DNA of 54,858 nt, from the NCBI GenBank assembly GCA_030426605.1, contig JAUHXM010000007.1, positions 1-54,858 on the forward strand. The letters are read 5' to 3'. The position numbers were made by a program, and so were the translations under genes. Each line of letters begins with the position of its first letter. The first letter of the stretch is position 1. Below, one piece after another: positions 16,747-23,249 of this stretch. The notes under the pieces are model-generated. The model was not told the origin of the DNA. It saw nothing but the letters and a program-made list of their open reading frames with translations, and did no database searches. The stretch comes from Phycisphaerae bacterium. Its GTDB lineage: Bacteria; Planctomycetota; Phycisphaerae; Phycisphaerales; UBA1924.

Positions 16747-16750
16747 GATT

Positions 16751-16790
16751 TCTCCCTCTCCCCGCCGGGGAGAGGGCTGGGGTGAGGGTG
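16751..16790. repeat. Palindromic intergenic repeat, probably also a terminator
   Basis: CCCTCTCCCC (16754-16763) pairs perfectly with GGGGAGAGGG (16767-16776) around a 3-base loop, then GCTGGGGTGAGGGTG follows. This sequence type is a widespread dispersed repeat in many bacterial genomes. It exactly fills the gap between the convergent genes ending at 16746 and 16792. Confidence 0.7.
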
Positions 16791-16791
16791 T

Positions 16792-17646
16792 TCACTTCGG
16801 CGGGTTCGCTTCCAACAGCTCCGCCATCGTGCACCATTTGAAGTCGCTCAGCAAACGCTCGAACCGCCCGTCGCACGCGCGCAGGTGGTTGTAATGCCGG
16901 AACGCGTGCGACTTCTTCAGCCCCGTCATCCGCGGCTGGCCCGCGTCGATCTCCCACGGGTGGATGTAGAACACGTACGGCGACCCAGACTTGAGCACCC
17001 GCTTCACGCCCCACTTGAACATCGGGTAGGGGTAGAGGCGGAAGTACCCGCCGCCCGCCCAGGGCAGGCCCTTGGGCCCGATGTTCACGACGGAGACGCA
17101 CGCCTCGGTGAACCCCGGGCGGATCTCCTGGATCGGCACGCCCGGCTTGAGCCCGGTCAGCTTCCCGTACCGGTCGTGCGCCACCGTCGGGAACGCGCTC
17201 GAGTCGTACGTGAACCCGAGCTCCTGCAGGATGTCGATCGCCCAGTCGGTGATCGAGAAGCTGGGGGCGCGGTAGCCTCGAATATCAGCCCCGGTGATGT
17301 CCTGCACGATCCCGACGCCGCGCTTCATGTCCTCGCGGAAATCGTCGTGCGAGAGGGTGTAGATCAGGTCGTGCCCGTACCCGTGGCTCGCGATCTCGTG
17401 CCCCGCGTCCGCGATCCGCTTGATCAATGCCGGGCACTTCTCGGCGACCCACCCGAGGATGAAGCACGTGCACGTGACGCCCGCGGCGTCCATCAGCTCG
17501 AGCATCCGGTCCGTGTTCCGCTCGACGCGCAGCTCGCGCTCGTCCCACGTGTCACGCGCGACGACGGCTTTCAGGTTCTCGACCTGGAACCAGTCCTCGA
17601 CGTCGATGGACATCGCGGCCGAGTTGGGTGCTTGCTGGAACGCCAT
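16792..17646 (-). CDS. Polysaccharide deacetylase, PEP-CTERM locus type (DUF3473)
   Basis: A NodB-fold deacetylase of 284 residues, predicted to remove N- or O-acetyl groups from an exopolysaccharide. Motifs are SIDVEDWFQ (catalytic/metal Asp pair, about 13-21), SHGYGHD (metal His pair) and RGYRAPSFS. The C-terminal third with GGGYFRLYPYPMFKW and YIHPWEID matches DUF3473, which marks the subfamily found at PEP-CTERM/exosortase polysaccharide loci. No signal peptide, so it may act in the cytoplasm or be exported otherwise. The ATG at 17646 lies one base from a repeat arm (17648-17728) that supplies its only upstream AGGA ribosome site. Confidence 0.93.
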   Translation of the reverse strand: MAFQQAPNSAAMSIDVEDWFQVENLKAVVARDTWDERELRVERNTDRMLELMDAAGVTCTCFILGWVAEKCPALIKRIADAGHEIASHGYGHDLIYTLSHDDFREDMKRGVGIVQDITGADIRGYRAPSFSITDWAIDILQELGFTYDSSAFPTVAHDRYGKLTGLKPGVPIQEIRPGFTEACVSVVNIGPKGLPWAGGGYFRLYPYPMFKWGVKRVLKSGSPYVFYIHPWEIDAGQPRMTGLKKSHAFRHYNHLRACDGRFERLLSDFKWCTMAELLEANPPK

Positions 17647-17647
17647 C

Positions 17648-17728
17648 GAGAGTCCTGAGTCTTGAGGCTTGCGTCCTGAGTCTTCGCTTGCCGACCCCAG
17701 GCCTCAAGCCTCAGGTCTCAAGCCTCTC
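17648..17728. repeat. Gene-less inverted repeat related to the 21939-22391 cassette
   Basis: Two 30-nt arms (17648-17677 and 17699-17728) match inversely at 24 of 30 positions and enclose a 21-base loop. Each arm is made of degenerate copies of a 14-nt unit resembling GAGGCTTGAGTCCT, as in the terminal repeats at 21939 and 22355. On the minus strand the element starts within the stop codon of the formyltransferase and ends one base before the ATG of the deacetylase. Confidence 0.75.
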
Positions 17729-18512
17729 AAAGCATCCGATGCCCGAGCTTCCGCAGCTTCTTCACGTCCGCCGGCTTGGGGAAGCTGAAGTACTTCTTCT
17801 CGCTCATGTCGATCGGCGTCGCCTGGATCGACCCGGTGCGCAGGCGGTCCAGCACGGAGATCATCAGGCGGGCACCCCCCCGCTTCGTCTCGACGATCAG
17901 GCGATCGAGCGCGTCGCCCCCCTGCGAGATCGGCCTGATGGGTACCTCGAGCGTGTCCAGGATGCCGCCCGCGTCGAGCTTCTCGACCATCTCGTGCACC
18001 GTGACTGTCGCGCAGGGCTCCTCGTGCAGCAGCTGCCAGAAGTTGGGCATCATCCCGCGGTAGACCGGCAGCCGCCCCGAGTGAATGTTCACGCACCCCA
18101 GGCGCGCCGACTCGAGGATCCCCTTCTTGAAGATCTCGGGCGCCGCGACGGACACGATCACGTCCGGGTTCATCGCCCGCACGCGCTCGATGTACCCGGG
18201 GTCGTTCACGCTCGTGCACGGGACTTCTTTCACGCCCGCGTTCGTCGCGAGCGTCAGGATCGAGCGCCGGCTGAGCTTCGCCATCGCGAAGCGCATCCCC
18301 ACGCGGACGAAATCCACCGGCCCGTAGAAGCCCCACATCCGGCGCGCGGTCTTGGTGATCGGCTCGTGGAACGCCTCATCCACCGTGATGCCGATGAGGT
18401 CGAACCGGTCCTTGGGGTATTCCGCGAAGAAGACCTCGAAGAACTTGATGACGTACAGCGGGTCGTCCTCGGTGACGATCAGCACGCGCAGCTTGTGGTC
18501 ACCATCGCTCAC
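17727..18512 (-). CDS. Sugar formyltransferase-like protein
   Basis: A 261-residue protein of the formyltransferase fold, likely moving a formyl group from N10-formyl-tetrahydrofolate to an amino sugar for the polysaccharide. The active-site segment VNIHSGRLPVYRGMMPNFW carries the Asn-His pair and LPxYRG, and LDAGGILDTLEVPI gives the conserved Asp. It lacks the C-terminal domain of tRNA-Met formyltransferase, so a sugar substrate is preferred. GTG at 18512 overlaps the stop of the upstream glycosyltransferase by four bases (GTGA), showing an operon. Its stop codon lies at the edge of the repeat element 17648-17728. Confidence 0.85.
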   Translation of the reverse strand: MSDGDHKLRVLIVTEDDPLYVIKFFEVFFAEYPKDRFDLIGITVDEAFHEPITKTARRMWGFYGPVDFVRVGMRFAMAKLSRRSILTLATNAGVKEVPCTSVNDPGYIERVRAMNPDVIVSVAAPEIFKKGILESARLGCVNIHSGRLPVYRGMMPNFWQLLHEEPCATVTVHEMVEKLDAGGILDTLEVPIRPISQGGDALDRLIVETKRGGARLMISVLDRLRTGSIQATPIDMSEKKYFSFPKPADVKKLRKLGHRML

Positions 18513-20004: not shown

Positions 20005-20622
20005 ATGACCGACCCAGCCGACACCAACCCGCCACCCGCCGCGTCAGACGACGCCGAGGCGTTGGTCATGCCCGCGGCGAAGCCCAACATGGTCTCGCCG
20101 CACTCCACCAAGCAACGCCTGGGACGCATGCTCTGGGGGCTCGTGCAAAACACCCTATTTCGGTGGTCCCCCCGCCCATTCCACGGCTGGCGGGTCATGC
20201 TCCTCAAGCTCTTCGGGGCGGACGTCGCCTCGAACGCCCGCCCGTACCCCGGCGCCAAGATCTGGGCCCCCTGGAACCTCACGCTGGGCGAGTACGCGAC
20301 CCTCGCCGACGACGTGATCGTCTATTGCGTCGGGCGGATCACCGTCGGCAAGCGGACGACGATCAGCCAGTTCACCTACCTCTGCGGCGCGACGCACGAC
20401 TTCGAGCACCCCAACTTCCCGCTGACGCCCTTCGACATCACGATCGGCGAGCACGCGTGGGTCGCGGCGGACTGCTTCGTCGCGCCGGGCGTGACCATCG
20501 GCGACGGCACCGTCGTCGGCGCGCGATCCAGCGTCTTCCGCGACCTGGGCGCGTGGAAGGTCTGCGCCGGGTCGCCCGCGAAGGAACTCCGCGACCGCGT
20601 CATCCGGGAGGCGGACGCGTGA
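20005..20622 (+). CDS. WcaF-like acyltransferase (left-handed beta-helix)
   Basis: A 205-residue hexapeptide-repeat enzyme, predicted to O-acetylate a sugar of the polysaccharide from acetyl-CoA. Visible are GAKIWAPWNLTLGEYATL, then imperfect hexapeptides through YLCGATHDF (catalytic His), TIGEHAWVAADCFVAPGVTI and the late CAGSPAKELRDR typical of WcaF/putative colanic acid acetyltransferases. ATG 20005 is chosen since upstream frame sequence is Pro/Arg-rich intergenic DNA. The next gene starts inside the last codons (GTGA overlap). Confidence 0.9.
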   Translation: MTDPADTNPPPAASDDAEALVMPAAKPNMVSPHSTKQRLGRMLWGLVQNTLFRWSPRPFHGWRVMLLKLFGADVASNARPYPGAKIWAPWNLTLGEYATLADDVIVYCVGRITVGKRTTISQFTYLCGATHDFEHPNFPLTPFDITIGEHAWVAADCFVAPGVTIGDGTVVGARSSVFRDLGAWKVCAGSPAKELRDRVIREADA

Positions 20623-21956
20623 TCGAACGCGAGTGCTCCATCCGGCGCGTCACGCCCGATGACGGGCTGCACTATTGGTTCGGGTACTACGACAAGTGCC
20701 CGTGGGACAGCTCGGGCACCAAGCTGCTCGTGCACCGGACCAACTTCGTCGATCGGTTCCCTGAAGCGAGCGACCCCGCCGAGATCGGATGGGTGGACCC
20801 GACGGCGCGCAAGCCCAAGTTCCACAAGGTCGGCACGACCCGCGCGTGGAACTGGCAGCAGGGCGCGCATCTCCGCTGGTGGAAGGACGTGGACGGGTTC
20901 GAAGGCGTCATGGTCAACGACCGTGATTCCAAAGGGAACCTGTACACCAAGATCCTCGACCTCGAGGGCGACGAGGTGCACCGCATCCCGCACCCCCTCG
21001 TCGCCGTCACGCCGGACGGGCGCACGGGGCTGACCCTCAGTTTCGGGCGTCTGACACGCCTGAAGCGTGAGTACGGCCTGCCCGGCGTCGCGGACCCGAA
21101 CCCCAAAGCCGCCTCCCCGAAGGACGACGGCGTTTTCAGCGTGGACGTCGGCACGGGCGAGCGGAAGCTGCTCATCGATATGTTCCGCCTGGACCGGACC
21201 GTCGCGCCGGGCGAGCCGAGCCCCGCCGCGGGCGACCTGCACCAGCACGTGAACCACATCATGCTCAACCCGTCGGGCACGCGGTTCTGCTTCATGCACC
21301 GCTTTGCGCGCGCCGACGGCATCCAGCAGTCGCGCCTGTTCACGCTGCCCCTGGAGGGCGGCGAGCCGCGGCTGCTGTTCGAGGGGCTCTGCTCGCACTA
21401 CGACTGGAAGTCCGACAAGCAGATCCTCGCGTGGGCGGGCAAGCGGACGCTCTTGGGAACCGGCACGCAATCCAAATCACCCGTGCAGCACGCGATGACG
21501 CTGGCGCGCAAGACGCTCAAGCCGATCTACTACGCGCTGGGCAAGCCGCGCATCCTGATGAACAAGATCATGAAGGACAGCTACCTGCTGATCCCCGACG
21601 CCGAGGACGCGCCGATCCTGTCGTTCGCGCGCGGCGAGCTGATCACCGACGGGCACTGCACCTTCAACCGCGGCGGCCGCGAGCCGGGACGCTGGGTGCT
21701 CACCGACGGGTATCCCGACATGAAGAACCGTCAGCCGCTCTTCTTGTGGGACTGCCGCGAGGACCAGGGGTACGAGATCGGGCGGTACCCGACGCCCAAA
21801 GAGCTGGACGGCGAGCTCCGGGTGGACCTGCACCCGCGGTTCAACGCGGACGCAACGAAGGTCTGCATCGACTCGGCGATGACGGGCAAGCGGGGGGTGT
21901 ATGTCGTGGATGTCACGGGGGTGACCGCGGCGAGGGCGGAGAGGCCTGAGACCTGA
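20619..21956 (+). CDS. Predicted beta-propeller protein of the polysaccharide locus
   Basis: A 445-residue protein with no signal peptide. Repeated segments ending in paired aromatic or Asp residues (NLYTKILDLEGDEVHRIPHP, VFSVDVGTGERKLL, SRLFTLPLEGGEPRLLFEG, VYVVDVTG) suggest a TolB/WD-like propeller of six or seven blades. YWFGYYDKCPWD near residue 19 is an unusual aromatic cluster. It may bind or cleave a polyuronide-like sugar chain, as oligogalacturonate lyases share such a fold, but no catalytic set is proven. GTG 20619 overlaps the acyltransferase stop, so the pair is coupled. Its last five codons and stop lie inside the left terminal repeat of the cassette at 21939. Confidence 0.75.
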   Translation: MIERECSIRRVTPDDGLHYWFGYYDKCPWDSSGTKLLVHRTNFVDRFPEASDPAEIGWVDPTARKPKFHKVGTTRAWNWQQGAHLRWWKDVDGFEGVMVNDRDSKGNLYTKILDLEGDEVHRIPHPLVAVTPDGRTGLTLSFGRLTRLKREYGLPGVADPNPKAASPKDDGVFSVDVGTGERKLLIDMFRLDRTVAPGEPSPAAGDLHQHVNHIMLNPSGTRFCFMHRFARADGIQQSRLFTLPLEGGEPRLLFEGLCSHYDWKSDKQILAWAGKRTLLGTGTQSKSPVQHAMTLARKTLKPIYYALGKPRILMNKIMKDSYLLIPDAEDAPILSFARGELITDGHCTFNRGGREPGRWVLTDGYPDMKNRQPLFLWDCREDQGYEIGRYPTPKELDGELRVDLHPRFNADATKVCIDSAMTGKRGVYVVDVTGVTAARAERPET

Positions 21957-22391
21957 GTCCTGAGGCTTGAGTGGGGAGCGCGCGTTGAGCCGTGATCATC
22001 GCAAGCTGAGGGCGTTTGAGCTTGCAGATGGACTCGCGGTCGAGGTCTACCGAATCACGCGGGGGTTTCCTCAAGACGAGCGGTTCGGGCTCGTGAGCCA
22101 ACTCCGTCGGGCAGCGGTTTCTGTGCCCACAAACATCGTTGAAGGGTGTGGGCGAGCGTCCGAGCGTGATTATGTGCGGTTCTTGCATACCGCCTTCGCG
22201 TCGCTCCGAGAGGTCGGGTACCTGCTCGATCTGTCCGAGCGACTCGGCTTTCTGCCCCACGAGGAAGCCCGAGCGATCCTTGGTCGCCACGACGAATGCT
22301 CCCGCGTGCTATCTGGCCTCATCTCGTCGCTCGGTCGAGCCGACTAGCCTCAGGCCCACTCAGGACTCAAGCCTCAGGACTCAAGCCTCTC
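21939..22391 (+). mobile_element. S23 four-helix-bundle cassette with 37-nt terminal inverted repeats
   Basis: Terminal arms at 21939-21975 and 22355-22391 are inverted copies with 31 of 37 positions identical. The right arm, read from its outer end, contains two exact tandem copies of GAGGCTTGAGTCCT; the left has shuffled variants of it. Both arms begin GAGAGG outside and end GAGTGGG inside. The only gene between them is the S23-family protein. The element supplies the stop codon of the upstream beta-propeller gene and ends exactly at the ATG of the next glycosyltransferase. No target duplication is obvious. Resemblance to 23S rRNA intervening sequences (S23 gene inside a long stem) is structural inference. 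Confidence 0.65.
21985..22347 (+). CDS. Four-helix-bundle protein, S23/rRNA intervening-sequence family
   Basis: A 120-residue all-helical protein. Family hallmarks are RKLRAFELADGLAVEVYR, FGLVSQLRRAAVSVPTNIVE, GCGRASERDYVRFLHTA and ILGRHDECSRVLSGLISSL. Relatives form pentameric positively charged barrels; the family includes proteins encoded by intervening sequences in 23S rRNA genes and is distantly related to the Avd protein of diversity-generating retroelements. The cellular role is unsettled. TTG 21985 is chosen: GGGGAG at 21973-21978 lies six bases before it and length then fits the family. A TTG at 21967 is possible but lies inside the terminal repeat. Confidence 0.88.
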   Translation: MSRDHRKLRAFELADGLAVEVYRITRGFPQDERFGLVSQLRRAAVSVPTNIVEGCGRASERDYVRFLHTAFASLREVGYLLDLSERLGFLPHEEARAILGRHDECSRVLSGLISSLGRAD

Positions 22392-23249
22392 ATGCCCGTC
22401 TCCATCTTCATCCAGACCCTCGACGAGGAGGACAACCTCCCCGGCTTGTTCGACTCGCTGAAGGGGTTCGACGATGTCGTCGTGCTCGACTCGCTGTCGA
22501 AGGACCGGACCAAGGAGATCGCGCTCGAGCGCGGGGCCCGCTGGTTCGAGCGTGCGTACGACGGGCGCGGCCCGCACCAGAACTGGGCGATGGACAACAT
22601 CGAGTTCAAGCACCGGTGGGTGTTCTACCTCGACGCCGACGAGCGGATGACGCCCGAGCTGCGAGCCGAGATCGAGCGAATCGCCGACGGGTGGGACGCG
22701 GGCGAGATGAGCAAGGACAAGGGCTCGCCCGTCGCGTACTGGTGCGGGCGCAAGAACATGTTCCGCGGCCGATGGCTCAAGCACGCCATGCCGCCGGGGC
22801 ACATCATGCGGTTCTTCCAGCCGCCCCACATCCGGTTCGCGCGCCTGGCGAACCCCGTACCCACCGTGGACGGCGAGACCGGGTACCTCAAGGAGCACTT
22901 CATCCACTACAACTTCAGCAAGGGGCTGAACGAGTGGATCCAGCGGCACAACCGCTACTCGACGTACGAAGCGAAAGAGACCATCCGCGCGCTGAACGAG
23001 CAGCCTTTGAAGCTCGGCAATCTCTTCAGCGGCGACTCGATGACACGCCGGCTCGAGCTCAAGAACCTCTCATTCCGCGTGCCCTTCCGCCCGACGCTCA
23101 AGTTCCTATACTTCTACGTCTTCAAGCTCGGGCTGCTCGACGGGCGCGCGGGGTACACGTACTGCCGCCTGCAGCAGATGTACGAGTGGCAGATCGTGAT
23201 CAAGGTGCAGGAGATGCAGCGCGAAGCGAAGGGCCTGCAGGGGAGCTGA
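22392..23249 (+). CDS. Glycosyltransferase family 2
   Basis: A 285-residue GT-A glycosyltransferase. It opens with VSIFIQTLDEEDNLPG, continues VVVLDSLSKDRTKEIALERGA, and has the metal-binding YLDADER near residue 77. The shape matches WaaE/KdtX-like enzymes that add a sugar from a nucleotide donor to a lipid- or polymer-linked acceptor. The start ATG directly follows the right terminal repeat of the S23 cassette, so the natural leader has been replaced; the nearest ribosome-site candidate, AGGA at 22376-22379, is 12 bases away and inside the repeat. Low translation or readthrough from the cassette gene is possible. Confidence 0.9.
   Translation: MPVSIFIQTLDEEDNLPGLFDSLKGFDDVVVLDSLSKDRTKEIALERGARWFERAYDGRGPHQNWAMDNIEFKHRWVFYLDADERMTPELRAEIERIADGWDAGEMSKDKGSPVAYWCGRKNMFRGRWLKHAMPPGHIMRFFQPPHIRFARLANPVPTVDGETGYLKEHFIHYNFSKGLNEWIQRHNRYSTYEAKETIRALNEQPLKLGNLFSGDSMTRRLELKNLSFRVPFRPTLKFLYFYVFKLGLLDGRAGYTYCRLQQMYEWQIVIKVQEMQREAKGLQGS

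Follow-up and report, generated by a model that had tools for sequence, protein, structure and literature searches.

The window, that is, the entire stretch of 54,858 nucleotides analyzed here, contains a polysaccharide operon in which a small cassette occupies the junction of two forward-strand genes, an upstream operon gene (20622-21956) and a downstream glycosyltransferase family 2 gene (22392-23249). The cassette is bounded by two arms, at 21939-21975 and 22355-22391 (no strand assigned), which match as inverted copies at 31 of 37 positions (84% complementary) with 379 nt between them. The inverted pair was recovered at exactly the coordinates given in an earlier reading of this DNA from its letters alone (the sequence-only reading). 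That reading described the right arm as a tandem 14-nt unit. The right arm is indeed a tandem array, with the units CTCAGGA, CTCAAGC, CTCAGGA, CTCAAGC and CTC, but its true period is 7; the apparent 14-nt unit consists of the alternating heptads GAGGCTT and GAGTCCT, and the left arm is an array as well (GAGGCCT, GAGACCT, GAGTCCT, GAGGCTT and GAGTGGG). The arm score of 16.5 was reached at 0 of 1,881 other window positions with the same spacing. This score and the permuted-pair controls across loci described below rule out chance pairing of the arms.

The only gene between the arms lies at 21985-22347 on the + strand. Its product (MSRDHRKLRAF...) matches PF05635, 23S_rRNA_IVP, with an E value of 3.6e-31 and 107.9 bits (cut-off 33.8), and also TIGR02436, four helix bundle protein. 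The AlphaFold model shows four helices with a pLDDT of 96, and the best PDB matches to the fold are 2gsc (Xcc0516) and 2rld (BT_0352), followed by Avd of diversity-generating retroelements. Profile matches and predicted structure agree with the earlier identification of the sole enclosed gene as an S23 four-helix bundle, and the proposed relation to Avd holds at the level of the fold. The gene likely starts at TTG 21985, after a probable ribosome-binding site, GGGGAG, read from the sequence at 21973-21978 on the + strand. The upstream gene ends inside the left array, with its stop codon TGA at 21954-21956, and array-encoded residues take the place of the C-terminal tail seen in a genome of the same genus (G001). 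The ATG of the downstream gene at 22392 directly abuts the right array. Both the upstream stop and the downstream leader are hence supplied by the cassette, as had been claimed. The cassette has a strong predicted hairpin (z -4.8).

No transposase was found between the window arms, and no reverse transcriptase was found at the window S23 locus; the only RVT_1 match of the genome (G000) is on contig C46, not C158. The genome has two Y1 matches and one S23 gene. A comparison of the window locus with Rfam gave no match. PADLOC, which covers defence systems, gave no match either, and S23 as a defence system was rejected on this ground.

Filled and empty junctions

The junction occupied by the cassette is empty in three relatives. 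In G001, the sole other member of the genus compared, no S23 gene is present anywhere in the genome and the two flanking genes are adjacent, with 83% DNA identity on each side; what lies at the junction there is the upstream gene's end, followed by a spacer of 28 nt. The flanking genes of two family members also lack a cassette between them, being 7 nt apart in G032 and overlapping in G005. Given three empty relatives against one filled, a gain is the simpler reading, though absence alone gives no polarity. On these alignments the cassette is an insertion between previously adjacent genes, as the sequence-only reading had proposed; the gene and repeats standing in place in all relatives, without empty sites, would have argued against it, and this is not what was found. 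A target duplication was not resolvable in the comparison with G001. Apart from the cassette, the alignment of the window to G001 breaks in an intergenic region at about 16747-16797.

Filled and empty pairs were also found at junctions of other genomes. A Trb-type conjugation operon of cyanobacterial plasmids, about 97% identical between filled (L173/L244) and empty (L245-L247) copies, carries the S23 gene in Trichormus and Scytonema plasmids and lacks it in those of Aulosira, Nostoc and Tolypothrix. The filled site is AAAAAGTAAT, the element and GTAATTAAC. Set against the empty site, AAAAAGTAATTAACAAATAA, it reads as AAAAAGTAAT-element-GTAATTAACAAATAA; the insertion is clean and comes with a duplication of 5 bp, GTAAT, which from this alignment is a probable target duplication. 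It is the one filled/empty pair with a clean target duplication. A candidate duplication at L258, TTCTA, is doubtful, since a different element (L176) also has ATTCTAG at its right end. For the remaining pairs, presence and absence were confirmed and either no duplication was readable or spacer DNA had been lost. At the cas6-cas4 junction of a type I-D CRISPR operon, S23 elements are located at L177:2498-2857 and L254:1237-1605, whereas the junction is empty in Pseudanabaena ABRG5-3 (L252). IVP genes have been found in cas loci and listed as CRISPR-associated (PMC3936711); the empty junction suggests that these genes are insertions. Further pairs include an integrase operon (filled in L170, empty in L249-L251), the nrdB-nrdA junction of a Nostoc plasmid with an antisense S23 element at L175:2486-2854 (empty in L253), and the TraM operon and others. 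In the G047 lineage (L051, G047:C83), an antisense S23 cassette replaces a 165-333 bp spacer of paralogous modules; the cassette sits in one of these modules, which are numerous in the genus and roughly 90% identical, with an inter-gene spacer that varies by copy. No transposition event was observed.

Heptad hairpins without a gene were found as well. One lies in the window at 17647-17730 (84 nt, no strand assigned), where inverted heptad arrays enclose an 11-nt loop between co-directional - strand genes, a formyltransferase-like and a polysaccharide deacetylase gene; its RNA fold has a z of -6.1, and the same junction measures 13 nt in G001. Another inverted heptad pair, L021 (G000 C161, about 20080-20250), spans about 173 nt versus about 39 nt in G001, and codons resembling an S23 start (TTGAGC, then CGATCA) lie between its arrays. 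The two hairpins look like internally deleted, non-autonomous copies of S23 elements. Further heptad arrays of G000 were located at C13:32274, C44:22080, C159:3080 and C161:49864; gene-less arrays in this genome were located by pattern search only. A Nostoc plasmid (C052, L248:1540-1690) has a heptad array of like type without S23 at the junction that is filled by an S23 element in Trichormus. Judged by its position and type, we take this array to be a decayed or non-autonomous copy.

Arrays beside S23 genes across bacteria

A scan of species genomes yielded 80 S23 loci from Planctomycetota, Myxococcota, Proteobacteria, Bacteroidota, Verrucomicrobia, Hydrogenedentota, Spirochaetota and others, and these together with S23 loci from relatives made up a first test set of 104 loci. 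The best match at a lag of 7 was 0.645 beside the S23 gene versus 0.435 at 600 bp, and other lags did not rise beside S23 genes in this set, except slightly at 8. Inverted arms were called at a score of at least 14, with arms swapped between loci and far flanks as controls. They were present in 69% of the 104 loci, as compared with 5% of permuted pairs and 0% of far flanks. Similar values were obtained for 25 Gammaproteobacteria loci (68%, permuted 3%) and 25 Spirochaetota loci (60%, permuted 3%), and for 60 loci of ten genomes, a set that also covers the divergent 2rld-like S23 branch, the values were 89% and 68% in two bit-score classes (permuted 1%). The sequence-only reading had called for a search for related cassettes, and the same anatomy was recovered at unrelated junctions in many phyla. 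That the arms are 7-nt arrays, and that such arrays are general among S23 genes, escaped that reading.

Among 184 loci, the period of the array beside the S23 gene was 7 in 111, 8 in 26 and another value in 4; far-flank controls had arrays in 13 of 179, scattered over periods. Loci with 8-nt units include L297, L304, L307-L309, L315, L317, L331, L332, L337, L346, L349, L352 and L353. A detectable array was absent at about a quarter of the S23 loci, and at some loci (about 10%) the arrays were direct instead of inverted. On the S23 strand, 83% of the upstream arrays were rich in purines, and the dinucleotide AG recurred in most array units. For loci with clear neighbours, as judged by ORF-based gene calls, 36 S23 genes were sense at co-directional junctions, 6 were antisense, 6 were convergent and 5 were divergent. 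The neighbours differed by locus and included glycosyltransferases, cas genes, nrd, Trb and integrase. There was no rRNA among the loci screened, and the possibility that the S23 elements sampled here are embedded in rRNA was rejected on that basis. A search of 50,697 phage records for S23 returned no match. The closest relatives found for the window protein were from a Polyangiaceae MAG (71%) and Phycisphaeraceae (68%). Array-flanked S23 genes look like a family of transposase-less mobile elements that is widespread and has gone unrecognised until now.

The similarity of arrays climbs with the identity of the S23 proteins, from 0.43 below 35% identity to 0.63 at 70-95%, and array and protein are correlated with a Mantel r of 0.36 (0 of 1000 permutations). 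The S23 tree groups loci by their unit length, 7 or 8, with 15 changes required as compared with a shuffled mean of 24.2 (0 of 500). For the 60 loci of ten genomes, array similarity was 0.437 within and 0.429 between genomes; sharing a genome does not make arrays more alike, which indicates that the host does not set the array sequence. As far as these comparisons go, array type and unit length go with the S23 protein and not with the host genome. Shared ancestry feeds both the array similarity and the protein similarity, so that co-inheritance is established and binding is not; an action of S23 on the arrays is inferred from correlation only, without binding data. S23 copies within a single genome are at most 64% identical and never nearly identical, which suggests that movement is rare and horizontal transfer frequent. 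We saw no sign of recent intragenomic bursts.

Proposed element and rival explanations

We consider it probable that these loci represent a family of small selfish foldback elements of about 0.4-0.5 kb, with the S23 gene in the loop and inverted 7/8-nt arrays as stems, which lack a transposase and are moved by host enzymes. The element is well supported, with its anatomy, its recurrence, its insertion between previously adjacent genes, arrays that are inherited along with the protein and not the host, and gene-less derivatives that vary among close relatives all being observed; the mechanism is inferred. At the gene junctions that it occupies, mostly in the same orientation as the operon, the array gives the upstream gene its stop codon, and the S23 gene is presumably expressed from host transcription. 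An S23 oligomer, which is Avd-like and forms a pentamer in the solved relative 2gsc, may then bind the units of the array, either in single-stranded DNA or in the RNA hairpin, and the hairpin may be passed to host replication and repair enzymes and copied into a new junction by foldback or template switching. Heptad hairpins without a gene could be mobilised in trans, and an rRNA IVS would be an element of the same kind that landed in a 23S rRNA loop. Binding, copying and dependence on S23 are not demonstrated and remain inferences.

The arrays could instead be pre-existing repeats, prone to slippage or forming G-quadruplexes, into which S23 genes land or recombine. Heptads without S23 are common, several being present in G000, and two Xanthomonas genomes have 70-75 inverted pairs each (PMC4692102). 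At the Trb and operon junctions that are empty, however, there is no array at all, which largely refutes this possibility; it also does not fit with the array type, which goes with the S23 protein and varies among the loci within a genome, or with arms that are inverted around the gene and share a polarity, the purine-rich arm being upstream. We regard this explanation as quite improbable. Much the same low weight is given to the idea of a domesticated regulatory module, in which S23 binds heptads in the transcript and tunes the neighbouring genes, and the spread is ordinary horizontal transfer. Whereas the operon-junction sites, the coupling to stop and start codons and the strong predicted hairpin would suit such a module, the unrelated neighbours among loci, the antisense and convergent cases and the frequent empty sites would not.

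Two other explanations retain mobility and assign it to an enzyme acting in trans. In the one, a trans-acting reverse transcriptase has S23 as its Avd-like partner and movement proceeds via an RNA hairpin. S23 shares the Avd fold with a TM of about 0.78 and matches the Avd model weakly (20 bits), and G000 does have its reverse transcriptase, albeit on a different contig. The sense bias of 36 versus 6 at co-directional junctions fits an RNA step; it may equally stem from selection for expression or for harmless insertion. On the other hand, antisense insertions are known (L175, L051 and L255), and a reverse transcriptase was not detectable in 28 of 41 S23-bearing relatives or in 9 of the 13 genomes with at least five S23 genes. 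A need for a co-resident reverse transcriptase finds no support, and we think the retroelement route unlikely. In the other, a Y1 transposase of the RAYT/IS200 type mobilises the element in a REPIN-like manner and S23 is a passenger. The gene-less hairpins look like REPINs, and S23 and Y1 counts show a weak rank correlation (rho 0.27, p 0.035), but the arms are tandem heptads rather than REP palindromes and 11 of the 41 S23-bearing genomes have no Y1 match, including G053 with its ten S23 genes; this route appears very unlikely. An obligate partner of either kind, reverse transcriptase or Y1, was rejected for want of a reliable association with S23 across genomes. It is the lack of a catalytic gene in the element, taken with the genomes that lack a reverse transcriptase or Y1, that favours the foldback element moved by host enzymes.

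Relation to known elements and heptamer repeats

RNase III cuts the intervening sequence (IVS) of 23S rRNA out of the transcript, and the ends are not rejoined. To our knowledge, many genomes of bacteria encode S23 proteins, annotated as 'four helix bundle protein' or 'S23 ribosomal protein', for which no function has been given since 1993, and the heptamer repeats of bacteria have been described several times and not explained. One element could explain S23 proteins, heptamer repeats and CRISPR-associated IVP genes alike. Should S23 drive movement while lacking a catalytic domain, this would constitute a novel mode by which DNA spreads. The matching of protein to repeat unit opens a direct biochemical test. 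The broadest form of this proposal is that S23 elements are a pan-bacterial class without transposase in which a non-catalytic four-helix-bundle oligomer reads a 7/8-nt code in the foldback arms and has host enzymes copy the element, with the heptamers of Xanthomonas, cyanobacteria and Beggiatoaceae as non-autonomous offspring and rRNA IVSs as copies in rRNA; it is tentative, and we hold it at somewhat less than even.

Several known elements resemble the cassette in part. The rRNA IVSs of Coxiella and Leptospira have an S23 ORF of about 120 codons within stem-forming terminal inverted repeats, measure about 430 nt, occur sporadically and are thought to be selfish (PMC4990558), and IVP genes are also present in rRNA insertions of CPR bacteria (PMC11270868). 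The window cassette likewise has an S23 ORF within inverted repeats that make a long stem, whereas it is located in a protein operon and not in an rRNA gene. The S23 loci here further have tandem 7/8-nt arms and gene-less derivatives; we have no data on the period of IVS arms. Avd has the same four-helix-bundle fold (4dwl, 8ub7), but the window protein scores 20.2 bits against a curated cut-off of 80 and has no adjoining reverse transcriptase. REPIN/RAYT and MITE-type elements are similar in that short hairpin copies seemingly rely on a protein whose gene lies at another place in the genome; unlike in REPIN/RAYT systems, the protein is S23 and not a Y1 transposase, and the units are tandem heptads. 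The eukaryotic foldback transposons Tetris and Galileo appear alike in their long, internally tandem terminal inverted repeats and differ in having, or being derived from elements with, a DNA transposase; no homology is claimed. Compared with a classical insertion sequence, the cassette has no transposase between its terminal inverted repeats.

The heptamers GGGAATC and GGGGA(C/T)T make up tandem arrays between aligned ORFs; many of those in Xanthomonas form inverted pairs that hug stop and start codons, those in Nostoc are mostly unpaired (PMC4692102), and TAACTGA heptads occur in Beggiatoaceae, cyanobacteria and Bacteroidetes (PMC4679880). Such repeats were interpreted as quadruplex-forming or regulatory, and S23 or IVP is mentioned in neither text (PMC4692102, PMC4679880). 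No literature linking S23 to heptads was found in open-access papers; subscription journals and preprints were outside the scope of the search, and a prior description is possible. The window cassette resembles the Xanthomonas-type repeats in its tandem 7-nt units, arranged as an inverted pair between co-directional ORFs. In a locus of Gammaproteobacteria, L280, GGGAATC arrays flank the S23 gene on both sides, which ties the S23 of rRNA IVSs to the heptamers of Xanthomonas and Nostoc.
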